A DNA stretch of 64,000 nt, taken from Nitrospiria bacterium (lineage in GTDB: Bacteria > Nitrospirota > Nitrospiria > JACQBZ01). The notes under the pieces were generated by a model. That model searched no databases. It saw only the letters and a list, made by a program, of their open reading frames with translations, and was not told where the DNA came from. Positions 36,118-64,000 of the stretch are shown here, piece by piece. A program made the translations under genes and the position numbers. The stretch spans positions 1 through 64,000 of the forward strand of contig DATIYJ010000035.1 in the NCBI GenBank assembly GCA_035517655.1, read 5' to 3'. Numbering within the stretch: the stretch's first letter is position 1; every line of letters starts with the position of its first letter.

Positions 36118-37269
36118 CTATTGCAGCCCCAGCGTCGTCCAGGTCTGTCCGCCGTCGGTCGTCTTGATGATTTTCCGGTTGAAGAGGGCGGCATAAAAAG
36201 TGGTGTGGTCGATGTCGGTCTTCATGAAGTCGGCCGCCGCGAAGGCCGTCAGGCCGGGCTGGAGGATCTCGGAAGGCGTCGAGCAGTCCCAAAGAATGCA
36301 CCAAAAGCCCCCTCGATCCACGCTCCGAACAATCCCATCGGAACCCGCGTAGAGCGTCAGATCCGCCGTGGTGGGACCGATCAGCGGCGCCACAAAATAG
36401 ATTGTGAATTTGAATTTGGGATCGTAGGAAAGGTTAAAAGTAATCCCCGAGTCCGTGCTCTTGTATATCCCGCTGCCACCCGAACCGGCTTCTCCCCCGC
36501 TCGTCCCGACGTACAGCTCGGAAGCCAGCTGCGGGTTCACGGCCATGGAGACCACCTCCTCCTGCGTCAAGGCCTTCAGGCCGGGGATGGCCTCGGTCCA
36601 CTGGGCATCGATGCTCGGGTTGACTCCTCTCGAGAAAAACCCGCCGCCCTCGGTCCCGATATAGAGCCGGCTCGTCGCCTGGTCGGGGACGAGGGTGGGG
36701 TAAATGGCCATGGCCGTGACGGCGGAATTGCTCAAGTTGTCGGTGAACGGCGAAAAGGTGAAGCCGCCGTCGGCGCTTCTCCAGACACCGCTCGACTGGC
36801 TCGCCAGATAAACGCCGCGGCAAGGGGGGGTGGGGGGACAAAAGTTGCGGTCGATGACGATCGCCCGTATGCTGGTGATCGCGCTTTGACCGATGGGACT
36901 TGACCAGGTCTCACCGTAATCCAGGCTGGCAAAGATCCCTCCGTTTTCCGTTCCGGCATAGATCCGGGACGGCGTGACCCAATCAATCGCCAGCGCCGTG
37001 ACCTTCAGGTCGATCAATCCGTTGTTGATCGGGGCCCACGAACTTCCGCCGTCGGTGCTCTTGAAGACGCCGCCGCCGTCGGTGCCCACGTAGAGCGTGG
37101 TCGGCGTAACGGGATCGATCGCGATCGCCTTGAGGTCGTAGGTGCTCGAAATATTCTTGGAAGGGGAACCCCAGCAGCCGGACAGGACCGGGACGAGGAT
37201 TAGGACCAGGATCAGGCCGCCAAGGGGATGAACATTGACGACCCGGTTGAGAGAATCTTCGGAGGTCAT
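36118..37269 (-). CDS. BNR-repeat exported lipoprotein
   Basis: 383 residues. A lipoprotein signal ends in LVPVLSGC with the modified Cys at about 32. BNR/sialidase-type blades follow, with repeated GVFKSTDGGSSWAPI, GIFASLDYGETW, GVWRSADGGFTF and IIKTTDGGQTW turns, as in Asp-box and Ycf48-like propellers. No sialidase catalytic residues are evident, so I would not call it an enzyme. A longer open frame runs upstream to 38181, but the first part is the shadow of the next gene. The ATG at 37269 overlaps the stop of the YVTN gene as TAATG. It is the last gene of the propeller array. Confidence 0.85.
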   Translation of the reverse strand: MTSEDSLNRVVNVHPLGGLILVLILVPVLSGCWGSPSKNISSTYDLKAIAIDPVTPTTLYVGTDGGGVFKSTDGGSSWAPINNGLIDLKVTALAIDWVTPSRIYAGTENGGIFASLDYGETWSSPIGQSAITSIRAIVIDRNFCPPTPPCRGVYLASQSSGVWRSADGGFTFSPFTDNLSNSAVTAMAIYPTLVPDQATSRLYIGTEGGGFFSRGVNPSIDAQWTEAIPGLKALTQEEVVSMAVNPQLASELYVGTSGGEAGSGGSGIYKSTDSGITFNLSYDPKFKFTIYFVAPLIGPTTADLTLYAGSDGIVRSVDRGGFWCILWDCSTPSEILQPGLTAFAAADFMKTDIDHTTFYAALFNRKIIKTTDGGQTWTTLGLQ

Positions 37270-39569: not shown

Positions 39570-42500
39570 TCACGGCCCCGCGGTGTAGTACAGTCGCGTG
39601 TTATTATCCCCGGACACCAGGGGCGAGGACCAGCCGAGGAAGACGGACAACGCGCTGCCCGCTCCCCCCGTCGCGGGCATATCGATCACCGGGCTGTAAT
39701 AAGCGCTCTCGGATCCCACGCCGCCGTCAATAATAACCGCGCCCTGCCAGCCCGGCACGGACACGTTTCCACAGGGACCCGGCCCGGTCGACAGCGCGAA
39801 GCAGTTGCTGTAGATCCGGAACATCGCGCCGTCGTTCTGCGTCCAGACCTCCACCCCGTTTCCTGCGGCATCCATCACGATCTGCGGCGCATGCGCGTCC
39901 CCGCTCCCGGCGTCGATCTCTTGTCCGGCCAGCCAGGGACTGATAAAATAGTGGGCCCAAATATTCCAGCCCGATCCATCGTAACTCTCGTAGGTCGTAA
40001 TGGCGTAGCCGGCTCCGTTCGACGCCATCGCAATATGCGGATTCCTGAATTGGCAATTCAGAATCGAGCGAACGCCGTCGAGCGAGGTGGAGGAGGGGCA
40101 GCCGCCGGCAAAGGGCCCGGTTCCGAAGACCGTGGGAGTCGATACCGTATTAACACCATCGGGTATGGTTAGGACAGGATAGCTGCCAAAATTGGCTAAT
40201 ATATCCATAGTCCAGTTGACGGCCGACCAGGGAGAACCCATCCCGTACTCGCGCGCCACGATCGCCTGGCCTTCATAGTACTGATCGGCATTTCCATCCG
40301 GATTACAGTTCCCGTTATGAGCCCCGCTTGCACAGCCCGCCCCCAAAGGATTCGAGATAGAAAAATCCTCGCTCAGCCCCCAAGAGGTCTTAATCAACAG
40401 GAAAGTCTGGCCCGTTGTATCCATCGCGAGATCAAACTCGACGATGTTGACGCAGGAATCGCTATTGCTGACCGTTCCCCGACTTGGCGCACCTCCGTCA
40501 CCGGCTTCGAAACAAATAAGTTGATTCCGGCTGGCAACGCTGCCGGGCGTACCGCTGGAGAGGTTGGCATCCGGACTAAGGTCCATCGGACTCTGCCAGC
40601 TTGTTCCATTGAAAAGATTGGCCTGAAGGCTTGAGACCATACAAGGACCTTGTTGTATCGTTAAATTGTTGACATCACCTGTAACGCCCCCGTCGAACGT
40701 CGAAGGGTCAACCGTAGGCGGGACAAAGCAGTCCGTCTGTTGCACCATCTGGATAAAGGCCACAATCGAACGACCGAAGTTGTCCACCTTCACACGCGGG
40801 CTCTGGCTGGGTTGAACCGTGGAGCTGTCCACACCGCTGAGGTAGCAGATGCCGTCGTTCAGGCCGCTCCCTGCAGGGCAAATGGTGTCCGACGTGTCCC
40901 AGACCCCGTTGACCAGCCGCCGTACGACCGTCTGCCATCCGGCCGAGAACTTATAGATGTCTCCACCCGTATCAAAGGTATTTCCCAATCCCGCATACAA
41001 ATCTCCATCGTAGACGGCAAGAGAATGCACCGAGTCATACGTATTAAAATCATGGCTATCGGACCAATCTGTCTTATCGCACGCGATACACCTCTTGATA
41101 TCTCCGCTGCTTCTCGTCCCTCCGCTTGGATCGCCCAGACCGATGTACAAAAATCCATTATAGGGGACCATGGTATTGACACCCGCAAAATTTTCCGGAT
41201 AATCACTCCCCGTGAACACATTGGTCCAGTCACTATTTCCACCGCAGATGCTGCAACTCTCGATATCGCCATGCGCTGCGGTAACCGACTGAACGTCCTC
41301 CCCATAGCCGATATAAAGCCGGCCGTTGTAAACCGCCATGGAATCCACGGCCCCGTAGGTCGCCGAATTATCTCTAACGGTAACCCAGTCCGACCCGTCG
41401 CAAATCGTGCAGCGCTTCACATCGGCCGTGGTAACGGAAGAGATGATATTTCCATCTCCAAAACCGGCATAGAGCTGGGGGGCGGCGCAGGTCGAACATT
41501 GATAGACGGCCATGGAATCTATGGCGCCGTAGAAACCCGGGTTGGGAAACACCGGACTCTTCCAGACCATTTGCCAATCGGAGCCGTCGCACACGGCGCA
41601 CCGCCATATGTCTCCTTTACCAGGCGTCCCCACGGTTCCGGTCCCGTGTCCCATGCCGATATAGAGCGATGGAGTCGGACAAGCAGGACACTGATAGACC
41701 GCGATCGACCGCACGTCATTATAAATCGCGGCGCCGCCGACGTTCGCGCAGGGGGGGGAGCCGCCGCCGCACGACAGATTATTCGTGGTCAATGGAGTCC
41801 AGGCGGTTCCGTCAAAGACCCTCATGTCCCCTTCACTATTGTTGGTGATACTGGCGCCCAGACCGGCGTATAATTTACCATTATAAACAGCCATGGACCT
41901 AACTTCTTCATACCCGTTGGTTGGGTCATCATCATTAAAAGAATAGGACCAGGTATTTGTGCCAGCATCGTAAACGTAGATGTCCGAGCTTCCTCTCTGG
42001 ATGCCGCCCATGCCCGCAAATAACTCGCCGTTGTAAACACCCTCCATCGTCAGCACCTGGGAGCAATTATTATTCCCACCACCAGGGCATTGCGGACCTT
42101 GATCCGTCATGACCGTGATCCTGATCCGATCAATATTGAGCGGGGCCGCCGTCGTATCGTTATCCGAAATCAGGACACCGAACGAAGGATTGGGGGAGCT
42201 GGGAGCGCCGATATCGGACGGCGTCCAAATCGTTCCCCAGAGGTCGTTCAGGTTCCCGGTCACCGTGCCTGTATCCGTGGTCTGGCTCATCTGAATGCCC
42301 GTCTTGCGCGTTCCGACCAATGTACAGCCCGACTTTGTCAAACCGATGCGATATTGACGATCCGTTGCAGTGCCTGATGCCCCATTGCCTTGCACGCTCA
42401 CGATAATACCCTGAATACTCGTTGCGGTAATATTAAAATTGAAACCGGTAACACAAAGGTCATCCTGGGTCGTGTTATTGTATGTGGCATAGAAGCCATC

Positions 42501-43325
42501 CGCAGCAGTTTGTACGGCATTGGTTAATGTTCCCGAAGGAGTAGCCGTCCAGTTCGTCCCCGAGGCCGCTCCAGGGGTTTTAGGAGTAGGATTCGCGGCA
42601 GTCGAATCAAACACCTGGATCCAATCCTTTTGATTGTACTGCGACCAGACCGCCATGGCGCTGCCGACACCGTCGTCCGCCGTGCCTCCGGACGGCGGCA
42701 CGCCGTTGTTCGCCGGGTCCGGCTCCAGCGCGATCGCCGGGTCCGCCGCGTCAAAGTTGGTGAACTCCCCAGAGTCGTTGAGCTGCTGGACGGCTCCCCA
42801 GATCCCGCCGCTGAAGCGTCGCGCATAGACCCGCTGGGCCGTGCCGTCGTGCTGCTGCCACACCACAATCGCGTCCCCGTTGTCGTCCATCGAAACCTTC
42901 GGCGACCAGGCGTCGTACTGCGCGCTACCCGTGTCGATCACGCAGACCCCGTCGTTTCCCGTCGGGTCCGGATTCCCGAACGGGCAGGCCGTGTCGGTCG
43001 TGTCCAAGACGCCGCCGGTCCAATGCGCCGCGTAGAGATGGTAGACTGCCGGGAGGCTATCCGAGGCGTCCAGATCCACCCGCTTGGTCCAGACCGCGAC
43101 CGCGCCGCCTCCGCCGTTCGGCTGGACCGCTACCTGGGGGGTCACGTCAAAAACCGCGCCGACATCGAGCGGCGAGGCCGAGGGCGCCCAGGCCTTGGCC
43201 CTAAGACCGTTGTCGGCATTCCCGGACGAGGAGCTGGTTTTCATCCCGCAGCCGCTTAAAAGATAAATACTGCTCACCAGCGCGAGCGGAGGGATGAGGT
43301 ATGATCGTTTAAGCATTTTCATCAC
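39570..43325 (-). CDS. Giant Kelch/BNR-like surface lipoprotein with CxxC repeats
   Basis: 1251 residues. The lipobox is IYLLSGC (Cys at about 26). The N-terminal third has FDVTPQVAVQPNGGG and AVAVWTKR-type repeats. The centre has at least seven Kelch-like units of the form SMAVYNGRLYIGYG and DGDLYAGLG. Interleaved with them are CxxC pairs (CPAC, CAVC, CSTC, CTIC, CSIC, CIAC), several followed by DGSDW. The C-terminal part returns to YAITTYESYDGSGWNIWAHY units. No CxxCH heme site was seen. It may be a surface-exposed, metal- or disulfide-stabilised propeller assembly; function unknown. It is the largest gene in the array. Confidence 0.88.
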   Translation of the reverse strand: MMKMLKRSYLIPPLALVSSIYLLSGCGMKTSSSSGNADNGLRAKAWAPSASPLDVGAVFDVTPQVAVQPNGGGGAVAVWTKRVDLDASDSLPAVYHLYAAHWTGGVLDTTDTACPFGNPDPTGNDGVCVIDTGSAQYDAWSPKVSMDDNGDAIVVWQQHDGTAQRVYARRFSGGIWGAVQQLNDSGEFTNFDAADPAIALEPDPANNGVPPSGGTADDGVGSAMAVWSQYNQKDWIQVFDSTAANPTPKTPGAASGTNWTATPSGTLTNAVQTAADGFYATYNNTTQDDLCVTGFNFNITATSIQGIIVSVQGNGASGTATDRQYRIGLTKSGCTLVGTRKTGIQMSQTTDTGTVTGNLNDLWGTIWTPSDIGAPSSPNPSFGVLISDNDTTAAPLNIDRIRITVMTDQGPQCPGGGNNNCSQVLTMEGVYNGELFAGMGGIQRGSSDIYVYDAGTNTWSYSFNDDDPTNGYEEVRSMAVYNGKLYAGLGASITNNSEGDMRVFDGTAWTPLTTNNLSCGGGSPPCANVGGAAIYNDVRSIAVYQCPACPTPSLYIGMGHGTGTVGTPGKGDIWRCAVCDGSDWQMVWKSPVFPNPGFYGAIDSMAVYQCSTCAAPQLYAGFGDGNIISSVTTADVKRCTICDGSDWVTVRDNSATYGAVDSMAVYNGRLYIGYGEDVQSVTAAHGDIESCSICGGNSDWTNVFTGSDYPENFAGVNTMVPYNGFLYIGLGDPSGGTRSSGDIKRCIACDKTDWSDSHDFNTYDSVHSLAVYDGDLYAGLGNTFDTGGDIYKFSAGWQTVVRRLVNGVWDTSDTICPAGSGLNDGICYLSGVDSSTVQPSQSPRVKVDNFGRSIVAFIQMVQQTDCFVPPTVDPSTFDGGVTGDVNNLTIQQGPCMVSSLQANLFNGTSWQSPMDLSPDANLSSGTPGSVASRNQLICFEAGDGGAPSRGTVSNSDSCVNIVEFDLAMDTTGQTFLLIKTSWGLSEDFSISNPLGAGCASGAHNGNCNPDGNADQYYEGQAIVAREYGMGSPWSAVNWTMDILANFGSYPVLTIPDGVNTVSTPTVFGTGPFAGGCPSSTSLDGVRSILNCQFRNPHIAMASNGAGYAITTYESYDGSGWNIWAHYFISPWLAGQEIDAGSGDAHAPQIVMDAAGNGVEVWTQNDGAMFRIYSNCFALSTGPGPCGNVSVPGWQGAVIIDGGVGSESAYYSPVIDMPATGGAGSALSVFLGWSSPLVSGDNNTRLYYTAGP

Positions 43326-43353: not shown

Positions 43354-44763
43354 TCAGTTGGACCGCGCAAAGTAGATATCGTTGCCCTCTTCTTCCGTGT
43401 GCGCATCGGCATCGGCCGAGGAGACAAAGGGGTTGCCGCGGCCGTCCGTCCAGAGGAGATACGCCCTGCCCTGCTCATCCACCGCCAGGCTCGGGTGGTA
43501 GTGACGCGCGCGGGCGGCATCGTCGTTCACTTTTTCGTTGGCCCGGAGGCCGACCTGTCCCGGGCCGATCTGCGCGAAATAGATATCGGCCTGGCCGTTC
43601 CGGAAATCCTCCCAGGCCAGATCGATGCCGCCGCGCGGGTCGAAGGCAACGGAGGGGAAGGCCTGAGGGCGGTCCGTTCGATCATCGTTCACCCGGCTCG
43701 ACGGACTGAAATGGGCCCCGCCGTCCGCGCTGACGGCCAGATCGATGTCCGCGTCGCCCTGCCGGACCTTTTCCCACCAGAGCGTTTCGCCCTTGGCGGC
43801 GTCGGGCGGATCGACCGGCCCCGATTGCGGCCGGAACTGGGCCCAGGCGACGGCGACCCGGCCGTGCGGATCGACGGCGATGCTGGGAGAAACCTGGACC
43901 GTCCCGTCGGCCCCGGACACGACCCTCCGGTTCGGCTCGAAGGTCCTTCCGCCGTCGATGCTTCGGGTCAGATAGATTTCGGAGCGGCCGTTCCGAAAAT
44001 CCTCCCAGGCCACGACGACGAGACCCCCGGCTCCGGCCCCGACGGTGGGGTGCGACTGGACGGAACGGCCCGCATCGTCGTTCAGCCGGAGGTTCCGGCC
44101 GAAGCTTCTTCCACGGTCATGACTGACGGTAAAATAAATGTCCCCCTCGCCGTTGCGGTCGTCCGACCAGGCCGCATAGACGTTTCCCTCCGGAGAGACC
44201 CCGATCGACGGATTGCCATGATAGGCCCAGCCGTTGTCGTCGTTGAGGAGGAGGTTTTTGGTAAAGGTCTTCCCGCCGTCCTCGCTCCGCGCGAAAAAGA
44301 TGTCCGCGTGGCCTCTCCGGTCGTCCCGCCAGATCATATAGATCGCGCCCGCGGCATCCAGCCCGAGGCTGGGCTTGTACTGCCGGGCGCGGCCCGTGTC
44401 GTCGTTCACCCGGACATTCGGACCGAAGGTCGCTCCCCTGTCGTCGCTTTTGGCGAAGAAGACGTCGGAATCCCCGTTTCGAACATCGTACCAGGCCGTG
44501 AAGACCTCTCCTCCCCGCACCGCCACGCTGTGCGCCCCGGAAGAAAAGGTATGCGCCCAGAAGGACCGCCGGCCGGCGTCCGTGATGCGGTGATTGGGCT
44601 GAAACGAAGATGCCGGGGACTTAATGCTGGATGCCGGTGAGCTGCCTTCAACCTGCTGAGACAATGCCGACGGTCCCGCTAACGGGGTCAATGAAAGAGC
44701 CAGTGATAAATAGAATACCATTTTTCTCTTCCAGCATCTTGCGTCACGCCACTTGCTTCTCAT
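43354..44763 (-). CDS. Exported sialidase-fold (BNR) repeat protein
   Basis: 469 residues. A Sec-type signal runs through MVFYLSLALSLTPLAG, with cleavage likely after PSALS. Six or more units follow with the pattern NDD-x-GRAR, PSLGLDAAGAIYMIWRDDR and DIFFARSEDGGKTF, the Asp-box type repeat of sialidase-fold propellers. No lipobox Cys is visible. Conserved Asp-Asp-Arg turns suggest structural calcium or a repeated surface patch. The start may instead be 14 codons later at MVFYLS. It precedes the giant Kelch-like gene with a 28-base gap. Confidence 0.88.
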   Translation of the reverse strand: MRSKWRDARCWKRKMVFYLSLALSLTPLAGPSALSQQVEGSSPASSIKSPASSFQPNHRITDAGRRSFWAHTFSSGAHSVAVRGGEVFTAWYDVRNGDSDVFFAKSDDRGATFGPNVRVNDDTGRARQYKPSLGLDAAGAIYMIWRDDRRGHADIFFARSEDGGKTFTKNLLLNDDNGWAYHGNPSIGVSPEGNVYAAWSDDRNGEGDIYFTVSHDRGRSFGRNLRLNDDAGRSVQSHPTVGAGAGGLVVVAWEDFRNGRSEIYLTRSIDGGRTFEPNRRVVSGADGTVQVSPSIAVDPHGRVAVAWAQFRPQSGPVDPPDAAKGETLWWEKVRQGDADIDLAVSADGGAHFSPSSRVNDDRTDRPQAFPSVAFDPRGGIDLAWEDFRNGQADIYFAQIGPGQVGLRANEKVNDDAARARHYHPSLAVDEQGRAYLLWTDGRGNPFVSSADADAHTEEEGNDIYFARSN

Positions 44764-47096: not shown

Positions 47097-47924
47097 CTAC
47101 CAAACCACCAGGCTGTAATTTTCCGGGCCGTCCTTCGCGATATCCACCCGAACCGGACTCTCCTCCAACGGGATCGTCCGGACCGCCCGCTGCCGTTTCA
47201 GATCGATCACGGTCAGGGAAGCGGAACCGCTGTTGGCCACGTAGGCCCACCGTCCGTCGGGTGAGACCGCCGCGCTCTTGGGAGCGCGGCCGACCGGAAT
47301 GAGGCTCACGGTCTTCAACCCCCGAGTTTCCAGCACGGACACATCGTTCGACGCCTCGTTCACGATGAGAAGCCGCGCGCCGTCCGGCGTCACCGCCGCG
47401 GCCATCGGTCCCGTCCCGACCGCGACTTGCGCAATCTTCTCGAACGACGGGATGGACAAAACCGAGACGCGGTTGCCGCCGTGGTGCGTGACATAGGCCC
47501 GGGAACCGTCCGGTGAAAGCGCGATGCCGCACGGGTTGTCTCCCAGGACCAACGTCCGTCCCACTTCGCCCCGCGCGTTTTCGATGATCGACAAGTCCCC
47601 GGAATGATGATTCGTCACCAGTGTGAACCGGCCGTCGGGGGTCACCACGATCCCCATCGGGTTGGTTCCGACCGGGATGCGCTTCAGGATCCGGCGGCCC
47701 TCCAGGTCCAGGACAAAAACTTCGTTCAAATCTTCCGGAATGGCGTAACCGGTCCGTCCCCAGACGGCCAGTCGCATCGGTCGATGCTCGCCCATGATGG
47801 CCCGGGCCGACCGGAAATCGGGATAGCCCTTGTCGATCCGGACGTCGGGAATCCCGCCCCCGCATCCCCAAAGGGCGATGCCCGCCAGCGCGACCGCGAT
47901 CGTCATCCGAGGCGTTTTTGTCAC
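47097..47924 (-). CDS. YVTN-type propeller lipoprotein, short form
   Basis: 275 residues from a GTG. The lipobox is GIALWGC (Cys at about 21). Five clear YVTN blades are visible, with a weaker one at the start, so it is shorter than its seven-bladed paralogues and may need a partner to close the ring. It carries GDNPCGIALSPDG followed by THHGG, and TNHHSG, the same Cys/His pattern as the two YVTN proteins at 37-39 kb. The GTGA overlap with the upstream PD40 gene implies coupled translation of a YVTN and a PD40 protein. Confidence 0.86.
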   Translation of the reverse strand: MTKTPRMTIAVALAGIALWGCGGGIPDVRIDKGYPDFRSARAIMGEHRPMRLAVWGRTGYAIPEDLNEVFVLDLEGRRILKRIPVGTNPMGIVVTPDGRFTLVTNHHSGDLSIIENARGEVGRTLVLGDNPCGIALSPDGSRAYVTHHGGNRVSVLSIPSFEKIAQVAVGTGPMAAAVTPDGARLLIVNEASNDVSVLETRGLKTVSLIPVGRAPKSAAVSPDGRWAYVANSGSASLTVIDLKRQRAVRTIPLEESPVRVDIAKDGPENYSLVVW

Positions 47925-49780
47925 GGCCGCACCCCGGCCGCCTCGGTCAGCAAGCGTTTTTGCGTCCCGTTCGGGTCCGTGATCCAGATCCGGTATTCAC
48001 CGCTCGCGTTCGTGACGTAGGCCAGCCATCGGCCGTTCGGGCTGGCCGTGGGATGCCAGATGCGGGTGCCGGGCGGCGCGATGGAGCGGGTCAAGGACAC
48101 GATCTCCCCGCTCTCAAGATTCTTCCGGTACAATTCATCGCGGCCGGCCGATTCGGCGACGAAATAAAGTTGCTTGCCGTCCGCGGACCAGGCCGGCAGC
48201 CGCGCCGATGGAAGCCGCACGACCGCGCCCGCATGCCCTCCGTCCCGATCCATGATATAAATGGCGGAAGTCCCGTCCCGGTTGGAGGTGAACGCGATCC
48301 GACGGTCGTCGGGCGACCAGGCCGGTTGAATATCCGCACCCGGGGCGTCGGTCAACCGCGTCGGGTTCGAGCCGTCCGATCCAGCAACGTAGACCTCCCA
48401 ATGGCCGTCCCGATTGGACTCGAACGCGACCCACTTTCCGTCATGAGATTCGACCGGGTCCTCGCCCGGTTCGATCGCAAAAGGGCGCGCATGTCCGTCG
48501 ATCGTCCCTGGGTCCGCACGCTCGATCCGACCGGTTTCGGTGTCCATCACATACCATCCCCGAGCCTCATCCCGCCCGGCCGCAAAGGCGATCCGGCGAC
48601 CGTCGGCGAACCAGGTCGGATGCTCTTCAAAATAGCCTCCCGTTCCGTGCGAGCCCTCCTCGTTCGAATGGAAGCTCACGGCGATCTCGCGAAAATCCGA
48701 CATGCGGATGGCGTAAATTTCTTCCCGTCCGCCCCGGTTCGAGGAAAAATAAATTTTCGACCCGTCCGGAGACCAATACGGGCAGATGTCGTTGTCGGGA
48801 TTGAAGGTCAGGCGCGTCGGGTTGGACCCGTCCGAATCCATGACGTAGATCTCCGGATTTCCGTCCCGATAGGAGGCAAACGCGACATGCCTCATATCCG
48901 GGGAAAAGACCGGGCTGGATTCGGCCGCCGGGGTCTGCGTCAGGCGGACCAGACCCGTTCCGTCCGCCCGGATCGTGTAGACGTCCCAGTTCCCGTCTTT
49001 GTTCGATTCAAAGACGATCCGCCGACCGTCGGAAGCCCAACGCGGATGATCCTCGTCCGAGGGGTAGTCCGTCAGATCCACGGCCTCGCCTCCTTCGGAG
49101 GGCATGAGAAAAATATCCCAATTCCCGGTGCGGTCCGAAATGAACGCCAGGGACCGGCCGTCGGGCGAATAGACCGGCGCGTCGTTGTCTTGGGCGCTGG
49201 CCGTCAGGGCCTCCAGGGCCGTGCCGTCGGGATGGACCCGGTAGATCTGCCAGCTTCCGCTCCGGTTCGACGCGAAGGCCAGCCATCGGCCGTCCGGCGA
49301 CCAAACGGGATTATAATCCTGCGCCGAGCCGCTTGTCACGCGCCGAAGGTCCCGCCCGTCCGGCCTCACGGTATAAACGGCCCAATTCCCGCTGCGCCGG
49401 GAAGCGAAGACGATCCGGCTTCCGTCGGGGGACCAGGCGTAACTGCCGTTTCCGTCCTCGGCGCGGTTCCGGGTCAGGTTGACCGGGTTCGAGCCGTCGT
49501 CGTTCATCACGTACAGCTCGGTGTTGCCGTCCCGATTGGAGACAAAGGCGATCCGCTTTCCGTCGGGCGAGGCCACCGGCCAGATGTATACCGGTTTTCC
49601 CTCCCGGAGATCCATCGGCTGGTCTTCCTCCTCCGAGCCGTACGGTTGATTCCCCTTCAGCGGATTAACAAGGGATGGGGCCGGACCGCCGCCGCATCCG
49701 GCCGTCAAAAAGGCGAAAAGCGTTGCAAGGTTGAAAAGTCGCGCGGCCGCATTGAACCTTTGGACCCTTAAACCCTTCAC
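47921..49780 (-). CDS. Twelve-bladed PD40 double-propeller lipoprotein
   Basis: 619 residues from a GTG that gives a short basic N-terminus and lipobox FAFLTAGC (Cys at about 29). I count twelve PD40 blades, from FVSNRDGNTELYVM to YVTNASGEYRIWIT, consistent with two six-bladed rings. A break near the middle (ISVSFHSNEEGSHGTGGYF-like loop after FSSNRGGREEIYAI) may mark the junction. The longer frame to 49948 runs into the next gene and is rejected. The stop overlaps the YVTN gene by four bases. It is the largest PD40 protein in the array. Confidence 0.87.
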   Translation of the reverse strand: MKGLRVQRFNAAARLFNLATLFAFLTAGCGGGPAPSLVNPLKGNQPYGSEEEDQPMDLREGKPVYIWPVASPDGKRIAFVSNRDGNTELYVMNDDGSNPVNLTRNRAEDGNGSYAWSPDGSRIVFASRRSGNWAVYTVRPDGRDLRRVTSGSAQDYNPVWSPDGRWLAFASNRSGSWQIYRVHPDGTALEALTASAQDNDAPVYSPDGRSLAFISDRTGNWDIFLMPSEGGEAVDLTDYPSDEDHPRWASDGRRIVFESNKDGNWDVYTIRADGTGLVRLTQTPAAESSPVFSPDMRHVAFASYRDGNPEIYVMDSDGSNPTRLTFNPDNDICPYWSPDGSKIYFSSNRGGREEIYAIRMSDFREIAVSFHSNEEGSHGTGGYFEEHPTWFADGRRIAFAAGRDEARGWYVMDTETGRIERADPGTIDGHARPFAIEPGEDPVESHDGKWVAFESNRDGHWEVYVAGSDGSNPTRLTDAPGADIQPAWSPDDRRIAFTSNRDGTSAIYIMDRDGGHAGAVVRLPSARLPAWSADGKQLYFVAESAGRDELYRKNLESGEIVSLTRSIAPPGTRIWHPTASPNGRWLAYVTNASGEYRIWITDPNGTQKRLLTEAAGVRP

Positions 49781-49800
49781 CGTTTCCGGATCATGTTTTT

Positions 49801-50940
49801 CTATTTCGGCGACCAGTATGGCCACTTGCTCTCTCCTTGCAACCGGGTCAACTGCGTGACACGGGATCCATCCGGACTCATGGTGTAAATCTGATAATGC
49901 CCATCCCGGTTCGAACTGAACGCGATCTGCCGGCCGTCGGGCGACCATTGGGGCCCGATGTCGTCGGCCGGATCGTTCGTCAGGTTTCGCAGATCTTGCC
50001 CTCCGGCGTCCATGACGTAAATATCATTCCGCCCTTGTCGAAGCGCTTCGAAGGCCAATCGGCGCCCGTCCGGCGACCAGGCCGGGTTCGACGCGGCGCC
50101 GTCCATCCGCGTCAGGCGGCGGGGCTTGGACCCGTCGGCCGCCATGACATAAATCTCCCAATGACCGTCCCGGTCGGACTCGAACGCGATTTGGGCTCCG
50201 TCCGGGGACCAGACCGGTGTTTCGTTATCGCCCGTTCCCCGGGTCAGCCGAAGCGGATCGCCGCCCTTCGCCTCCACCCGATAGATCTCCCAACGGCCCG
50301 TCGCATTGGACTCGAACGCGATCGTCTCTCCGTTGGGAGACCAGGCCGCCGCCACCTTGTCGCCGGGAAGATTCGTGAGCCGAGTCCTTTCTTGCCCATC
50401 GGCCCGCATCAGGTAGATCTCCCGACGGCCCTCGTCGCCGAGCATGAAGGCCAGCCGGTCACCTTTAACGCAGCCCTCCGGCTCCGCCGGGGGCTGCGCG
50501 GGGCCCGGGGACATCGGAGCACCCGTCGAAGACGGAGCGCACGGGCCCCCGGATCCAACGGGCGACCAGGCCGGGGCGCTCTGCCGCTCCGGTGTCCGGG
50601 TTATCTTCGTATCGACGAAATCCCGAAGGGTCATACTGTAAATCTCCCAGCGGCCGTCCCGGTCGCTGAGATAAGCCAGCCGTTCTCCGTCGGGCGACCA
50701 CGCCGGCCAGATATTTTTACCCCGGCCCCGCGTGACGTTGCTCAAGTGGCGCCCATCGCGGTTGACGATATAAATGTCCCGGCCCCCCCCATGCAGAACG
50801 GTGAAGGCCAGCCGGGCCTCCCGCCCCGCCGGGTCCGGAAAGCCTAATTCAGGCCTCGGACTCCCGGTCGTCGCGCAAGCCGCGGGAAGCAGCCAGGCCG
50901 CCGCGATGAAAAGCGCCCATCGCCATGCCGTTTCCTTCAT
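49801..50940 (-). CDS. PD40/TolB-like seven-bladed lipoprotein with a repeat insertion
   Basis: 379 residues. The signal ends WLLPAAC (Cys at about 22; proline at -3 makes the lipobox imperfect). Seven PD40 blades follow. In the third, the normal WSPDGDRLAF is interrupted after WSP by about 32 residues rich in Gly, Pro and Ala (VGSGGPCAPSSTGAP to EGCVK). The DNA there matches the composite repeat found between genes in this window. The insertion is in frame and would lie in a blade-blade turn. GGCGGAG precedes the ATG. The gap to the next gene is seven bases. Confidence 0.9.
   Translation of the reverse strand: MKETAWRWALFIAAAWLLPAACATTGSPRPELGFPDPAGREARLAFTVLHGGGRDIYIVNRDGRHLSNVTRGRGKNIWPAWSPDGERLAYLSDRDGRWEIYSMTLRDFVDTKITRTPERQSAPAWSPVGSGGPCAPSSTGAPMSPGPAQPPAEPEGCVKGDRLAFMLGDEGRREIYLMRADGQERTRLTNLPGDKVAAAWSPNGETIAFESNATGRWEIYRVEAKGGDPLRLTRGTGDNETPVWSPDGAQIAFESDRDGHWEIYVMAADGSKPRRLTRMDGAASNPAWSPDGRRLAFEALRQGRNDIYVMDAGGQDLRNLTNDPADDIGPQWSPDGRQIAFSSNRDGHYQIYTMSPDGSRVTQLTRLQGESKWPYWSPK
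50464..50567 (-). repeat. Dispersed repeat inserted in frame in a PD40 propeller gene
   Basis: On the plus strand this reads CAGCCCTCCGGC with GCCGGGGGCTG (a hairpin), then GCGCGGGGCCCGGGGACAT, CGGAGCACC and GCACGGGCCCCC. Copy 2 at 35939-36105 has TCCGGCTTGGCCGG, GCGCGGGGAGTGGGGGCAT, CGGAGGACC and GGACGGGCCCCC in the same order. The insertion splits the WSPDG motif of one blade and preserves the frame. Confidence 0.65.
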
Positions 50941-53121: not shown

Positions 53122-54192
53122 TCAATTGAGCAACCATTGCGGATCGGCTTTCCGTCCCGCGACGGCCGTCACGGGCGTCGCCCCCGAACCGTCGGCGGCC
53201 GCAATGAAAAGTTCGGGGGCGTCGAGTTGATATCCCACGAACAACACCCTCCGGCCGTCCGGAGACCAGACCGGCTTGGCCTCGTCCGGCACGCGCGACA
53301 TCAGTCGCTTTTCATGGCGGCCGTCGGCATCCATCACATGGATTTCCCGCCGGCCGGATTGATCCACGGCGTACGCGATCCGGCTTCCGTCCGGAGACCA
53401 GACCGGATCCGTCTCGTCCCCGCGGCTCCGGGTCAACCGCGCGATGCCGCTGCCGTCCGACGCCATCCGGTAAAGCTCCCAGCTTCCGGTCCGGTTCGAA
53501 ACAAACAACATCTGTTTTCCATCCGGAGACCAGGCCGGACACCGATCGTCGGCGAGGTTTCGAGTGAGATTGGCCGGATGCGATCCGTCCGCGTCCATCG
53601 AATAAATTTCCCAGGCCCCCTCCCGCCTGGCTTCATACGCGATCCGGCGACCGTCCGGCGACCAAACGGGGTTGGCCTCCTCTTCCGGCGTCTCGGTCAG
53701 CCGCCGCTCGCTCGATCCGTCCGCATCGATGCGATAGAGCTCCCAATTTCCGTCCCGGTTCGATTCAAAGGCGACCCGGCGGCTGTCCGGGGACCAGACC
53801 GGCCCTTCGTCAATCCCCTTGGCGTAGGTCAGTCGGACCGGGGCGCTTCCATCGGTGTTCATGATATAGATTTCGTAGTCGCCATCCCGTCTCGAAACAA
53901 ACGCGATCTTGGTTCCGTCCGGGGAAGGCATCAGCCCTTCCTCCTCCTCCGGAGTGGAGGTCAAACGCTCGGTGCGTCGACCGTCGGCCGTCACCGAATA
54001 AATGTCCCAGGGACCGTCCTGCGTGGAGGCATAGACGATCCGGCCGGCCGCGGCTTCGGCCGGGATCGGAACGGCGGCGGGCGGGCTTTCCTTGAAAAGC
54101 GTCCCCTCGCAACCGGCGATGAAGCCGATCAAACCGCAAACCAGGAGGCCTTGTTGTCGGTCCCGCTTCCATCGGCCTTTCCCGCCGTCCAT
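53122..54192 (-). CDS. PD40/TolB-like seven-bladed lipoprotein
   Basis: 356 residues. The lipobox is LIGFIAGC (Cys at about 28). Seven PD40 blades follow, with YASTQDGPWDIYSV first and a divergent last blade (FVGYQLDAPELFIA). I chose the ATG at 54192, which has GCGGAG upstream, over a TTG five codons earlier. A 39-base gap separates it from the next PD40 gene, and 46 bases separate it from the YVTN gene upstream. No partner enzyme is nearby. Confidence 0.89.
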   Translation of the reverse strand: MDGGKGRWKRDRQQGLLVCGLIGFIAGCEGTLFKESPPAAVPIPAEAAAGRIVYASTQDGPWDIYSVTADGRRTERLTSTPEEEEGLMPSPDGTKIAFVSRRDGDYEIYIMNTDGSAPVRLTYAKGIDEGPVWSPDSRRVAFESNRDGNWELYRIDADGSSERRLTETPEEEANPVWSPDGRRIAYEARREGAWEIYSMDADGSHPANLTRNLADDRCPAWSPDGKQMLFVSNRTGSWELYRMASDGSGIARLTRSRGDETDPVWSPDGSRIAYAVDQSGRREIHVMDADGRHEKRLMSRVPDEAKPVWSPDGRRVLFVGYQLDAPELFIAAADGSGATPVTAVAGRKADPQWLLN

Positions 54193-54238
54193 ATTCCACT
54201 CCGCCAACCTTGACCGGCCCGCCGCGGGAGAGCCCGGG

Positions 54239-55267
54239 TCACTGAACCGCCAGACCGCTCGGTCGGACCCCGACCTTCACGGTCCGGACCACATGACCGG
54301 ACGGAAGGTCGATCACCGAGAGGTCGGACGATCCTTCGTTCAAAACATAGGCGTAACGGCCGTCCCGGCTGACCTTGACCTCGACGGGGGTCTTGCCGAC
54401 CGGGATATCGCCGACCACTTGGTACGTGCCGGCATCGATCACCGAGAGATCGTCCGTGCTGACATTCGTGACGTAGACGAATTTTCCGTCCGGAGAAAAC
54501 GTCAACCCGGCCGGAAAACTTTTGACGGTGATCGTCCGTTCGATGTTCCTCGACGCCGTGTCGATGATCGTCACGCCGCGGGGATAATCCGCCACCCAGA
54601 CCGTCCTACCGTCCGGTGAAACCCGGAGGCCGGTCGGCATCTCGCCCACCTTGATTTTCTGAACCACGGAACGGGTCCCGGTTTCGATAACCGCCACCTC
54701 GCTGGAGCTGCCGTTGCTGACGTAAACGAAGCGCCCGTCGGGGGCCACATCGATCCAGTTGGGGCCCAGTCCCACCGGAATGGTTTGAATCGTCCGCCCT
54801 TGCGCCAGATCGACGACCGAGACGGTATGCGACGAACGGTTGGTGACATACAGGATCTTTTGATCCGGGGACAGGGCCAGGCCCGTCGCGCCGTTCCCGA
54901 CTTCGATGGTGTTCACCACCCGATCGGAAGACGTGTCGACTACCGTTACGGTATTCGTGAAATTTGCCACGTAGAGACGGCTCCCGTCCCGCGTCAACGC
55001 CACGCCCCCCGGCAGCGCGCCCACCGGCAGCGTCTTGAGCGTCCGGTACCGGCGGGCGTCGATCACCATCAGATTATTGGATCCCTCGTTGGTCACATAA
55101 AGGAGCCCGCGCGGAACCGATCCGTCGGGAGCGGCGGGCGTCGGAAGACCGCATCCCAGAATTCCCAACAGAGCGAGACCTGTCGCCGCCGGTTTCCAGA
55201 CCGGGTTTCGGAGCCTCGGGGGCCGGACCGTATCGGCCGAAGGGATCGTTGCGCCGTGCGAACTCAT
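54239..55267 (-). CDS. YVTN-type seven-bladed propeller lipoprotein
   Basis: 342 residues. An unusually long N-terminus (basic, Pro-rich, about 28 residues) precedes the hydrophobic segment and lipobox LLGILGC (Cys at about 39). Seven YVTN blades follow (LMVIDARRYRTLKTLPVG to LSVIDLPSGHVVRTVKVG). The Cys/His blade pattern of the 37-39 kb paralogues is absent: the equivalent positions read VTNRS and VSNGSS. It overlaps the upstream YVTN gene by four bases (ATGA). Confidence 0.9.
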   Translation of the reverse strand: MSSHGATIPSADTVRPPRLRNPVWKPAATGLALLGILGCGLPTPAAPDGSVPRGLLYVTNEGSNNLMVIDARRYRTLKTLPVGALPGGVALTRDGSRLYVANFTNTVTVVDTSSDRVVNTIEVGNGATGLALSPDQKILYVTNRSSHTVSVVDLAQGRTIQTIPVGLGPNWIDVAPDGRFVYVSNGSSSEVAVIETGTRSVVQKIKVGEMPTGLRVSPDGRTVWVADYPRGVTIIDTASRNIERTITVKSFPAGLTFSPDGKFVYVTNVSTDDLSVIDAGTYQVVGDIPVGKTPVEVKVSRDGRYAYVLNEGSSDLSVIDLPSGHVVRTVKVGVRPSGLAVQ

Positions 55268-58449: not shown

Positions 58450-60333
58450 TCACAATCCGGCGGCCCCGGGCGCCAGCCAATGTTTTCCGCCGTCCCGGGT
58501 GTAGCGGATCAGCCCGCCGGTTCCAACCGCCGCGCCATGTTCGGCATCCGAGAAATGAACGCTGTAAAAATCGTTCGTCGTATCGGACGCCTGAGCCCGC
58601 CACCGCGTTCCGCCGTCCTCCGTCGCCAGGATGACGCCCCGATCTCCCACGATCCAGCCGTGTTGCGCGTCCGGGAAATAGACGTCGCCCAACTTCTCCG
58701 TCGTGCCCACGGCCTCCCGCTTCCAGGCGGCCCCGCCGTCCACCGTATGCAGGACGACGCCATCGCTCCCCACCGCCCAGCCGTTCAACGGATCCACAAA
58801 ATGGATATCGCCGAGCCATTTTCCATCAGGAGCCCGTTGCGTCCGCCAGTGCTTCCCGCCGTCCTCGGTCGTGAGGATAACCCCTCCGCGGCCGACCGCC
58901 CAGCTCCGAAGCCGGTCCTGGACGAAAAGTCCGTCCAGCCAATCCGTCGTCCCGCTTTCCTGCCGTTCCCAGTTCTCCCCACCGTCGCGCGTGCGGAGGA
59001 TCAGTCCGTTCCGTCCCACCGCCCAACCCTGCGCGGGAAGATCATCGGATGAACCCGCAAATTGAACATCGTAAATCCAATTTTCAGACGTCCCGCTGGT
59101 TTGGGAAAGCCAGTGCCGTCCGCCGTCCGTCGTGTGCCAGATCGCACCGAATCCGCCCACCACCCAGCCGTTCTTCGAATCGGTGAAATCGATTCCGCAC
59201 AACCACCGCATCGTATCGATCGGCTGCGCCGTCCATCGTATCCCGCCGTCGGTCGTATGCAGGATCACTCCGCTGTCCCCGACCGCCCAGCCGTTCAGGG
59301 CATCTGCAAAATGCACCCCGCACAACCAGGTTTTGACCTCCCGACTCTGCGCGATCCAGGTGTCGCCGCCGTTCGCGGTATGCCGGATGGCCCCGCCGCG
59401 GCCGACGATCCAACCGTTCCGCGGATCGGCAAAAAACACGCCGAGCCAATTCGCCCGGCCGCCGGACTGGGATTCCCATCGTTCCCCGCCGTCCGCAGTA
59501 TGGAGCACCGTTCCCGCCACGCCGACGGCCCAGCCGTTGCGCGCGTCCAAAAAATGGACGCAATACAGAGATCGGGCGGTTCCGCTGTTCTGGCGTCTCC
59601 ATTCGCGCCCCCCGTCGATCGTCGACAGAACGACCCCGTCCTTGCCGACGGCCCATCCCTGCCGCTCGTCGATAAAGAAAACCTCGTAGAGCCAGTAGCC
59701 TTCGGGAAGGACTTGATTCTCCCAGGTCTCCCCTCCATCCCGGGTGTGAAGGATCAGCCCGTCCCGCCCGACGATCCAGCCCCGATTTGCGTTTACAAAA
59801 CTCACGCTATAGAGGTAGCTTTGCGTTCCGCTCGCCTGGGGACGCCAGTGCTCCCCCCCGTCGTCGGTGTGAAGAATCGTTCCGTCCCGCCCGACGATCC
59901 AGCCCCGGTTGGAATCGATAAAATGGAGGCTGAACAGATGGGAGGATGTTCCGGCGCGTTGCCGCCTCCAGCGGTTTCCCCCGTCGAGCGTCCGTAGGAT
60001 GGTCCCGTCGTCTCCGATCGCCCATCCCTGTAAGGGATCCAGAAACTGCACGCCGCCCAAACCGCTCCGACTGCCGCTCGCCTGCGCCGTCCAGTGCTCC
60101 CCCCCGTCGTCGGTGTGAAGAATCAATCCGCCTTTTCCGACGATCCAGCCCCGGCGGGGATCGAGAAAAAAGACCCGGTCCAGATCTTCCTGCGGCCAGA
60201 GCGAAGGCGCCGCGGCCTCACGCCGCAAGCTGCACGCCGAGACGAGCATCCCGAAACAGATCATGCTGACAAAGAACACGGCCAACCGGACACCGCCGGA
60301 GGTTCCGACGGGGGCCAAAACGTTTATCCTCAT
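58450..60333 (-). CDS. Fourteen-repeat Ycf48-like lipoprotein
   Basis: 627 residues. The lipobox is GMLVSAC (Cys at about 34). I count fourteen repeats of GWIVGRDGTILHTDDGGEHW type, about 42 residues each, from GWIVGKGGLILHT to GAAVGTGGLIRYT. Ycf48 itself is a single seven-bladed propeller that assists photosystem II assembly in phototrophs. Fourteen repeats would make two such rings. There is no sign of phototrophy here, so the Ycf48 role should not be transferred. It overlaps the PD40 gene upstream by four bases (ATGA). Confidence 0.92.
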   Translation of the reverse strand: MRINVLAPVGTSGGVRLAVFFVSMICFGMLVSACSLRREAAAPSLWPQEDLDRVFFLDPRRGWIVGKGGLILHTDDGGEHWTAQASGSRSGLGGVQFLDPLQGWAIGDDGTILRTLDGGNRWRRQRAGTSSHLFSLHFIDSNRGWIVGRDGTILHTDDGGEHWRPQASGTQSYLYSVSFVNANRGWIVGRDGLILHTRDGGETWENQVLPEGYWLYEVFFIDERQGWAVGKDGVVLSTIDGGREWRRQNSGTARSLYCVHFLDARNGWAVGVAGTVLHTADGGERWESQSGGRANWLGVFFADPRNGWIVGRGGAIRHTANGGDTWIAQSREVKTWLCGVHFADALNGWAVGDSGVILHTTDGGIRWTAQPIDTMRWLCGIDFTDSKNGWVVGGFGAIWHTTDGGRHWLSQTSGTSENWIYDVQFAGSSDDLPAQGWAVGRNGLILRTRDGGENWERQESGTTDWLDGLFVQDRLRSWAVGRGGVILTTEDGGKHWRTQRAPDGKWLGDIHFVDPLNGWAVGSDGVVLHTVDGGAAWKREAVGTTEKLGDVYFPDAQHGWIVGDRGVILATEDGGTRWRAQASDTTNDFYSVHFSDAEHGAAVGTGGLIRYTRDGGKHWLAPGAAGL

Positions 60334-61339: not shown

Positions 61340-62371
61340 TTACGGCTGCCACCGGGGCGCGCTGACCCCGCCGCGGTTGAAGGTCAACCGCTTCAGGTGG
61401 TCCCCGTTGGGATCCATGATATAAACCGCTTCCTCGCCGTCCCGATTGGAGACAAAAGCGATCTGTTTTCCATCCGGAGACCATATCGGCTGGGCGTCCA
61501 CGGCCGGATTCCGCGAGAGATTCTTCACGCCGGACCCGTCCCGGTTCATCACATAAATCTCGTTGTTGCCGTCCCGGGTCGTCGTGAAGACGATCTGTCG
61601 GCCGTCCGGAGACCAGACCTGCATCCCCATCTGTTCATCGGACTTCGTCCGCGTGACATTGCTCGGGTTCGAGCCGTCGGCGTTCATCACGTAGATCTCC
61701 CAGTTCCCGTCCCGATTCATATCGCGGTCCGTTCCCCACGCGATCAGGGCCCCGTCCGGAGACCAGGAATGGAATCCCCGCCCGTCCTCCGCGGGGTTCT
61801 GAGTCAGATTGATCGGATGCCCTCCGTCGGCATCCATGGCATAGATCTCATAGTTGTCGTCCCGTCGGGACACAAAGGCGATTTTGGTCCCGTCCGGCGA
61901 CCAGTCGGGACTGTAATCCCGCGCTTCGTTCCGCGTCAGTCGGCGAACCGGGCCGCCGTCCATGGTCATCGAATAGATTTCTTGATTGCCGTCCCGATCC
62001 GATACAAACGCCACCTGTTTCCCGTCCGGAGACCAGGCCGGATTGTAATCCTGACCGAGGTTCCGTGTCAGGTTGGTCTGGCGGGAACCGTCGGCATCCA
62101 TTCCGTAGATCTCTTTGTTGCCGTCCCGTTCCGACACGAAAACAATCTTTGTTCCGTCCGGCGACCATGCGGGGGCGCGGTTGTCGGCCCGGCCATGGGT
62201 CAGGCGCGTCGCGCCCGTGCCGTCGGTGTTCATCGTATAGATTTCCCAATGGCCGTTTTCATTCGACTCGTAAACGATCTTTTTCGCCCCGGCCATCGCC
62301 GGGGGCGAAAAAAGCAGCAGAACGGCGCCGGCGACCCATGTCGCGCGACCGGTTTTAAAAAACGCCTTCAT
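61340..62371 (-). CDS. PD40/TolB-like seven-bladed secreted protein
   Basis: 343 residues. The signal peptide VAGAVLLLFSPPAMA is followed by AGAKK, with no lipobox, so it should be soluble in the periplasm. Seven PD40 blades follow (YESNENGHWEIYTM to FVSNRDGEEAVYIM). The fifth has a four-residue longer hairpin (WGTDRDMNRDGNWEIYVM), shared in position with a W-type turn of the fusion gene upstream. AAAGGAG precedes the ATG. A 116-base gap separates it from the next gene. Confidence 0.91.
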   Translation of the reverse strand: MKAFFKTGRATWVAGAVLLLFSPPAMAGAKKIVYESNENGHWEIYTMNTDGTGATRLTHGRADNRAPAWSPDGTKIVFVSERDGNKEIYGMDADGSRQTNLTRNLGQDYNPAWSPDGKQVAFVSDRDGNQEIYSMTMDGGPVRRLTRNEARDYSPDWSPDGTKIAFVSRRDDNYEIYAMDADGGHPINLTQNPAEDGRGFHSWSPDGALIAWGTDRDMNRDGNWEIYVMNADGSNPSNVTRTKSDEQMGMQVWSPDGRQIVFTTTRDGNNEIYVMNRDGSGVKNLSRNPAVDAQPIWSPDGKQIAFVSNRDGEEAVYIMDPNGDHLKRLTFNRGGVSAPRWQP

Positions 62372-62473: not shown

Positions 62474-62500
62474 AATATATATAAGTCTCACGGCTGCCAA
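62474..62500 (-). promoter_or_regulatory. Weak candidate promoter inside the propeller array
   Basis: Minus-strand TTGGCA (62500-62495) and TATATT (62479-62474), but with a 15-base spacer, shorter than usual. The surrounding TATATATAT is unusually AT-rich for this region. It could start a second transcript of the array. Confidence 0.25.
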
Positions 62501-64000
62501 CGGGGATAATCTTCCCTCGTCTGCGTGAACGTCAATTGCTCTTGATACCGACCATCGGTATCCATGACGTAGATTTCGTCATGGCCGGTCCGATTCGAGA
62601 CAAACGCCACTTTTTTCCCGTCCGGAGACCAAAGCGGAACATCGTCCATCGCCGGATTTCTCGACAGGTTCAACGAGCCGGTCCCGTCCGAATTAACGAT
62701 ATAAACCTCTTCGTTTCCATCCCGCGTCGAGATGAAGGCGATCTGCCGGCTGTCCGGGGACCAGACAAACATCCCGACCCCTTCCTCGGCCGGACTGTGG
62801 GTGACGTTCACCGGTTTGGACCCGTCGGCATTCATGACATAGATCTCCCAATTCCCGTCCCGGTTCGTGACCCACGCGATCTTGGAGCCGTCCGGCGACC
62901 AGGAGTGACTTCCCCGACCGTCCTCGGCCGGGTTATTCGTCAGGTTTTTTTGATCGGTTCCATCCGCGTTCATAAGGTAGATCTCGTTGTTGCGGTCGCG
63001 GTTTGAAACAAAGGCCACCCTCCGGCTGTCGGAGGACCAGTTGGGGTTCCAATTGTCGCCGGCCGCGGTCAAACGTGTCTGACGCCGTCCCTCCATGTCC
63101 ATTCGGTAGATCTCGCGGCGGCCGTCCCGATTCGAGACATAGGTGATCCATTCGCCGTTCGGCGACCAGGAGGGGCTGAAATCATCCCCCGCGCTGCGGG
63201 TGAGGTTGCGTTGATCCGATCCATCGGCATTCATCCGGTAGACCTCTTTGTTGCCGTCGCGGTCCGAAACGAAAAGAATTTCTCGGCCGTCCGGCGACCA
63301 GAAGGGGGCCCGATTCTCGGCCGTGGTATGGGTCAGACGGACCTGATGCGTCCCGTCGGCATCCATCAAATAAATCTCCCAATTCCCGGACCGCCGGGAT
63401 TCAAAGGCGATCTTATGATCCCGGTCGGGTTGGGACGGAGGGGGGGGCGAGGCTTGCGCGACCGTCCCGCCCAGCGCCACGGTCGATACCACCTCGTAGT
63501 CGGAGGCGTCGATGATCGAAACGTCCGAGGACCCTTGATTGACGACATAAACCGTCCGGCCATCGGGAGAAACGGTGATGTCCCAAGGATTTTTCCCCAC
63601 CGAAATCTTCCGGACGATCTTTTCATCCGCGGTATCGAGCACCGAGATCTCCCGGGCGTCGCGGTGCGCGATATAAAGAGAGCGGCCGTCCGGGGACAGG
63701 GCCAATCCGCCGGGATAGCTTCCGACCTTGACCATCCTCCGAATCCGCTTCGTCTGCGTATCCAGGATCGCGACCGCTCCGCTGTTCTCGATCGCCGCAT
63801 ACGCCGCTTTCCCATCCGGCGCCATCACGATGTCCCTCGGTCCCCGAAAAATCTCTTCACCGTCCGGAAGGACGACGGTCCGGGCCGCATCGGAACCCGG
63901 ATCTTCCACGTTCAACCGGGCCACGACCTCGCCGGTTGTTGCGTCGACGACGCGGATCGAATAGAAGTCGGTCACATAGAGGGCTTTCCCATCCGGGGTG
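62488..64000 (-). CDS. YVTN-PD40 propeller fusion, cut by the window edge
   Basis: At least 503 residues. Its N-terminus lies beyond the right edge, so the GTG at 63975 is internal: TPDGKALY is readable in frame before it. At least four YVTN blades (IRVVDATTGEVVARL, VAILDTQTKRIRRMVKVG, ISVLDTADEKIVRKISVG, VSIIDASDYEVV) are followed by a linker ASPPPPSQPDRD. Seven PD40 blades then run from FESRRSGNWEIYLM to FVSNRTGHDEIYVM. This joins in one chain the two propeller classes that alternate in the array, direct support for their working together. Confidence 0.9.
   Translation of the reverse strand, partial: TPDGKALYVTDFYSIRVVDATTGEVVARLNVEDPGSDAARTVVLPDGEEIFRGPRDIVMAPDGKAAYAAIENSGAVAILDTQTKRIRRMVKVGSYPGGLALSPDGRSLYIAHRDAREISVLDTADEKIVRKISVGKNPWDITVSPDGRTVYVVNQGSSDVSIIDASDYEVVSTVALGGTVAQASPPPPSQPDRDHKIAFESRRSGNWEIYLMDADGTHQVRLTHTTAENRAPFWSPDGREILFVSDRDGNKEVYRMNADGSDQRNLTRSAGDDFSPSWSPNGEWITYVSNRDGRREIYRMDMEGRRQTRLTAAGDNWNPNWSSDSRRVAFVSNRDRNNEIYLMNADGTDQKNLTNNPAEDGRGSHSWSPDGSKIAWVTNRDGNWEIYVMNADGSKPVNVTHSPAEEGVGMFVWSPDSRQIAFISTRDGNEEVYIVNSDGTGSLNLSRNPAMDDVPLWSPDGKKVAFVSNRTGHDEIYVMDTDGRYQEQLTFTQTREDYPRWQP

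Follow-up and report, generated by a model that had tools for sequence, protein, structure and literature searches.

Does a single reading frame at the edge of this locus join two different classes of propeller, and, if it does, does the joined gene tell us that the separate YVTN and PD40 propeller proteins encoded next to it associate with one another? The window, by which we mean the whole analysed stretch of 64,000 nucleotides, corresponds to C35:1-64000 of a 2.65-Mb assembly in 71 contigs. A preliminary description had proposed such a fusion in one open frame at 62488-64000; the minus-strand frame, 62488-63999 (503 aa), does remain open up to the window edge. The gene, g2, belongs to an array of propeller genes, and its parts are laid out as follows.

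37269-64000, minus strand: array of 18 propeller genes, g1-g18, colinear in the family where visible (g1 lies just outside the window, at C35:64527-65570)
62488-64000, minus strand, continuing to C35:64527: YVTN-PD40 fusion gene g2, 679 aa in total
63472-64000, minus strand: YVTN propeller half of g2, blades 4-7 in the window (full half, C35:63472-64416)
63415-63471, minus strand: linker of g2, about 18 residues, with low-confidence residues 354-369 in the structural model
62488-63414, minus strand: PD40 propeller half of g2, seven blades

When the sequence was read beyond position 64000, as had been recommended for finding the N-terminus, the frame carried on along contig C35, where 754 codons are open. 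On the contig the gene spans 62488-64527 and encodes 679 residues. Its likely ATG, at C35:64527, overlaps the stop codon of the upstream PD40 gene, g1, in the form TGATG, with one A common to both. A GTG at 63975 was discarded as the start, since the frame continues upstream of it on C35.

The g2 protein begins with a signal peptide ending at about residue 37 (assigned by eye), followed by the YVTN half (residues ~38-352), the linker and the PD40 half (residues 372-679). HMMs built from the blades of this array gave YYYYYYPPPPPPP on g2, that is, six YVTN and seven PD40 blades. A seventh, N-terminal YVTN blade was missed by the HMM and read by eye; it agrees with the predicted strands and with the alignment to 1L0Q over residues 48-354. 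The architecture given in the preliminary description, at least four YVTN blades, a Pro-rich linker and seven PD40 blades, is borne out by the full gene: four YVTN blades can be read by eye in the window and seven in the complete protein, seven PD40 blades are counted, and the linker of 18 residues is rich in proline and contains ASPPPPSQPDRD.

Each half of g2 is an ordinary member of its own propeller class. The TIGR02276 YVTN repeat model scores 156.8 bits on g2 (cut-off 27.85), and Pfam PD40 (PF07676) scores 214.9 bits in 6 stretches (cut-off 20.9). The N-terminal half resembles the archaeal surface-layer YVTN propeller 1L0Q (TIGR02276), its best solved match (phmmer 3e-51), with 34% identity over 282 residues and the same seven-bladed fold (Z 38.3, 1.8 Å, 282 residues aligned). 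In 1L0Q, the YVTN propeller is joined to a PKD domain, whereas in g2 it is joined to a second propeller. The PD40 half was compared by sequence only, because the fold search with the whole model was dominated by the N-terminal half. Its best solved relatives are TolB chains (7.5e-27), with which it has the PD40 blades in common (PF07676, TIGR02800). We rejected g2 as a TolB ortholog, as it scores 284.6 on the TIGR02800 equivalog against a cut-off of 343.15. The TolB N-terminal domain is absent from the 25 of 27 Pfam families listed for g2, and the TolB propeller is six-bladed, while the PD40 half of g2 has seven blades.

Matches of g2 to Lactonase, Cytochrom_D1 and hydrazine synthase could be taken to indicate an enzyme. 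We discarded this reading in favor of generic propeller similarity, given that the NCBIfam equivalogs score far below their cut-offs (for hydrazine synthase beta, NF052340, 120.9 on g2 against 560) and that no CxxCH heme motif was seen by eye in the g2 translation. In the fold search with the g2 model, 5c2v_B, the hydrazine synthase beta subunit, ranks second, and, according to an excerpt of PMC12758564, the alpha and beta subunits bring a seven-bladed and a six-bladed propeller into one c-type-heme complex. There, the propellers are separate subunits, whereas those of g2 lie in one chain that shows no CxxCH by eye. Two propellers per chain, as in g2, also occur in the Aip1 homologue 1NR0 and in tricorn protease, which are cytoplasmic and belong to other propeller classes. 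An excerpt of PMC3797127 assigns YVTN and PD40, as groups, to a single propeller hub.

AlphaFold models of the fusion were obtained for the window genome, G000 (input of 5 sequences, pLDDT 78.0, pTM 0.50), and for its relative G004 (input of 1 sequence, pLDDT 70.6, pTM 0.50). Both have a weak linker region, and neither of them, at this shallow input, gave a fixed relative placement of the two propellers. Within the limits set by such input, a pTM of 0.50 together with a weak linker is the outcome that two independent domains would produce.

In a search of 58 genomes, comprising the window genome and its relatives, g2 was present in all six other genomes of the family. It gave one match each in G001, G002 and G004 (81-86% identity) and two matches inside one 827-codon frame in G003. 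In G005, the gene appears as two pieces of one frame with a TAA within the first PD40 blades, and in G006 it is split by contig ends, leaving it intact in five of the seven family genomes. The in-frame TAA, at L093:14800-14802 in the PD40 half of the G005 ortholog, marks either a broken copy or a sequence error. Among the 10 pairs of G000-G004, dN/dS (NG86) lies at 0.09-0.19 in the YVTN half and at 0.05-0.09 in the PD40 half; the linker, for which six pairs had enough codons, gives 0.37-0.89. Purifying selection acts on both halves, and the fusion is therefore not the product of a frameshift or an assembly join, an outcome named in the preliminary description as one that would overturn its proposal. 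Although the window genome is fragmented, an artefact that joined two genes is exceedingly improbable and was rejected, because the same junction is found in five genomes with records from two sites (named records of four family genomes are groundwater assemblies from Montesol and Hainich that bear the label Nitrospirae or Nitrospiria), the linkers differ among genomes, the gene contains no N in the six genomes checked, and dN/dS is well below 1 on either side.

Outside the family, the fusion was not encountered in the sets that we searched. The YVTN half of g2 is matched at 1e-20 in 20 of 269 genomes of the class, and the matches outside the family share 28-41% identity and, in the loci scanned, have no PD40 in the same frame. 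No YVTN-PD40 fusion was present among the ORFs of 18 other loci scanned, and 53 further loci yielded none beyond the family members. No unfused ortholog of g2 was found among the 269 class genomes; the set of 58 genomes lists no member of the same order from outside the family, so that it lacks the nearest comparison. A search of 395 genomes of the phylum, with two candidates scored per genome, returned five full-length g2 matches, all from the family, and a plasmid search with g2 returned 722 records, 2 of which cover 80% or more at 25% identity. The YVTN-PD40 pairing was thus found only in one bacterial family, to which it appears confined in the sets searched. In a literature search we recognised no description of this fusion or of the propeller array, which is no proof of absence. 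A YVTN-YVTN joining in L092 was not counted, as it crosses an N gap. An open frame of 3397 codons with YVTN blades lies in a genome from another family of the class (G066:C35; L114, L129).

The origin of g2 can be approached through its linker and its nearest relative in the array.

61340-62371, minus strand: g3, unfused PD40 propeller that carries a signal peptide, the closest paralog of the PD40 half of g2

The PD40 half of g2 is sister to g3 with support of 100/99, and the two share 56-61% identity in the six genomes with both compared (60% for the closest paralog); the pair therefore represents an old tandem duplication. g3 scores 356.1 on the NCBIfam TolB equivalog, above the cut-off of 343.15, and automatic annotation may call it TolB; the TolB N-terminal domain is absent from the 16 Pfam families listed for g3, and tricorn protease is a weak match of it.

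The linkers of G000 to G005 measure 18, 18, 17, 82, 5 and 57 residues, respectively. The two long ones, in G003 and G005, contain a conserved Met and a basic stretch, followed by a hydrophobic run resembling a signal peptide. The Kyte-Doolittle mean over 17 residues reaches 2.31 and 2.33 in the long linkers, as against at most 0.55 in the short ones. The G000 linker, GTVAQASPPPPSQPDRDHKI, aligns to the stretch behind the hydrophobic segment of G003 and appears to be its counterpart. In g3, the signal peptide stands directly ahead of the first blade, and the inner hydrophobic segment is what a PD40 gene with a signal peptide of its own, as in g3, would leave behind. The second signal-like segment in the G003 and G005 linkers is thus best read as a relic of two separate exported genes that merged.

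In the scenario that follows from this reading, the ancestor would have carried a YVTN gene alongside a duplicate of a g3-like PD40 gene, both equipped with signal peptides. The stop codon between the two genes would have been lost, and the internal signal would then have been deleted in the window genus and in G004, leaving both propellers on the same side of the membrane in one chain. As an unfused ortholog of g2 was not found, we infer the two-gene ancestor from the relic only. The order of these steps, loss of the stop and then deletion of the inner signal, is likely, not proven, since gain of the segment in the G003/G005 line plus one loss amounts to two events, the same as two losses. 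The inner Met in G003 and G005 may start a separate PD40 protein, and in G003 an AAGAGG lies ~10 bases ahead of it. Read in this order, the relatives would present a readable series of two exported genes becoming one: stop lost, inner signal present, inner signal gone. We consider it rather probable that g2 is one Sec-exported YVTN and PD40 double propeller that was born of a merger of two genes and works as a non-enzymatic bivalent adaptor.

A second YVTN-to-PD40 fusion was identified further along the array.

54239-55267, minus strand: g8, YVTN propeller encoded on its own, joined in G004 to the PD40 gene that follows
53122-54207, minus strand: g9, PD40 lipoprotein encoded on its own, joined to the end of g8 in G004

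In G004, the counterparts of g8 and g9 form one frame, in which a short linker takes the place of the lipoprotein signal of g9, whereas in G000, G002, G003, G005 and G006 the two genes are separate, with a stop codon between them. The PD40 part of the G004 fusion is cut by the contig end, and there is no N at the junction. This part was assigned to g9 by its position and by its best match (54% identity over 206 residues; g10 follows with 47%). As read from the frames in these genomes, g8-g9 is a proper Rosetta-stone pair, its orthologs occurring separately. The series of merger stages and this second fusion make up the best part of the results; double propellers as such are already known.

On the strength of g2, the preliminary description had argued, by the Rosetta-stone principle, that the unfused YVTN and PD40 proteins in the array probably associate. 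This claim stands in part: g8 and g9 are fused in G004 and separate in five relatives, but for g2 the strict argument is not applicable, because no unfused ortholog was found. The evidence points only weakly to a general association of the separate proteins. We listed 17 propeller-propeller junctions by hand, taking g2 and g13 as two domains each, and found that 2 of 3 YVTN-to-PD40 junctions are fused somewhere, compared with 1 of the 14 others (one-sided Fisher p = 0.063). The single case among the others is g13, for which a fusion origin was assumed.

47921-49948 (the start being an upper bound), minus strand: g13, 12-blade PD40 protein whose stop overlaps the GTG of g14
47097-47924, minus strand: g14, YVTN lipoprotein, second gene of the GTGA pair, lacking in G003 and G006

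Twelve PD40 blades lie in one chain in five of the six genomes where g13 is seen, and in two frames in G004; g13 is probably a PD40-PD40 double propeller. The GTGA overlap of g13 and g14 at 47.9 kb, which had been offered as a further sign of pairing, is present, but an in-frame ATG of g14 also follows, 14 bases beyond the stop. As evidence for pairing we rejected it as unspecific. Stop/start overlaps occur at 6 of 23 junctions and are of several types (PD40 to fusion, PD40 to BNR, YVTN to YVTN, PD40 to PD40, PD40 to YVTN, which is the GTGA at 47.9 kb, and YVTN to BNR), so that they reflect general compactness.

Such compactness is in line with a neutral origin of the fusions, to which we give somewhat less than an even chance: packed exported propeller genes would sometimes lose their stops, and the joined product would work as two proteins with no partnership implied. 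WD40-type propellers are named, in an excerpt of PMC2248599, as promiscuous domains to be filtered from gene-fusion links. The variety of the overlaps, the look of g13 as a same-class joining, the p value of only 0.063 and the flexible linker of g2 agree with this explanation as well. It accounts less readily for the fact that g2 has been kept intact in five genomes under selection, and for the absence of the inner signal-like segment in two lineages, as would be expected if the one-chain form were favored.

It is more doubtful that unfused YVTN and PD40 proteins from the array assemble into specific heteromers, of which the fusions would be tethered versions. A single family has YVTN-to-PD40 fusions at two different positions in its array, and this, together with the contrast between 2 of 3 and 1 of 14 junctions, argues for such heteromers. 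So do the YVTN-PD40 linkers of 5-18 residues, which fall within the 30-residue range of one survey: as given in an excerpt of PMC529437, domain pairs at most 30 residues apart on one chain touch in 90% of its structures. The two propeller subunits joined in the one heme complex of hydrazine synthase (PMC12758564, in the excerpt cited above) provide a precedent. The g14 gene, however, was seen in G000, G002, G004 and G005, whereas G003 and G006 lack it (best match 38%) and retain g13 directly beside g15, so that one supposed partner has been lost without the loss of its neighbors. The unspecific stop/start overlaps, the lack of a fixed interface in the AlphaFold models of the fusion and the small numbers also speak against specific heteromers. 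If the propellers do partner, g8 with g9 and the two halves of g2 would be testable pairs, in an envelope locus beside multiheme cytochromes.

The order of g1-g18 is the same wherever contigs show it in G002-G006, save for the loss of g14 in two genomes and local changes downstream of g16. In G001, only g1-g4 and g17-g18 can be seen; its missing g5-g16 were not counted as a loss, because contigs C55 and C7 end there. Orthologs within the array are mostly 60-94% identical and paralogs ~30-63%, which, together with the fixed order, indicates an old, stable array and not a recent burst.

Upstream of the array, and sharing its strand, are two FGE-type genes (Pfam was run on one) and a cluster at L031:8154-19822 (C35 ~68.2-79.8 kb) that encodes four multiheme cytochromes with 11, 4, 4 and 5 CxxCH motifs, two NHL propellers and a SurA-like chaperone. 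A 629-aa protein of the cluster with no Pfam match is, by its look, a probable outer-membrane barrel. G001, G002 and G005 preserve the order of the cluster over the length of the stretches compared. The 20 kb analysed from G003 contained the FGE genes and the large cytochrome but no NHL, barrel or chaperone gene. The contigs of G004 and G006 end before the cluster.

In our preferred reading of g2 as a bivalent adaptor, its two halves, an N-terminal YVTN propeller with seven blades, of the archaeal surface-layer type, and a C-terminal PD40 propeller, also with seven blades and of the TolB type, would bind separate partners within a large envelope assembly for which the locus codes. From the fold class and the gene neighborhood we infer that g2 may serve as a bivalent envelope scaffold beside the multiheme-cytochrome cluster. 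An electron-transfer system nearby is proposed because of the multiheme cytochromes, NHL propellers, probable barrel and SurA-like chaperone of that cluster. A much bolder version, which we regard as unlikely, is that the whole locus encodes a scaffold of at least 18 propeller proteins organizing a multiheme-cytochrome conduit, an undescribed electron-transfer assembly in which the YVTN-PD40 fusions would be covalently locked joints. If this were true, sister species would show the locked joint with and without the inner export signal.

Two further observations concern the composition of the array. The protein encoded at 39570-43325 (1251 aa) has only a weak Kelch-type Pfam match. BNR/Ycf48-type propeller genes lie in or flank the array at 58450-60333, 43354-44763 and 36118-37268 (the last assigned by eye); being interspersed with the YVTN and PD40 genes, they add a third propeller class to the array.
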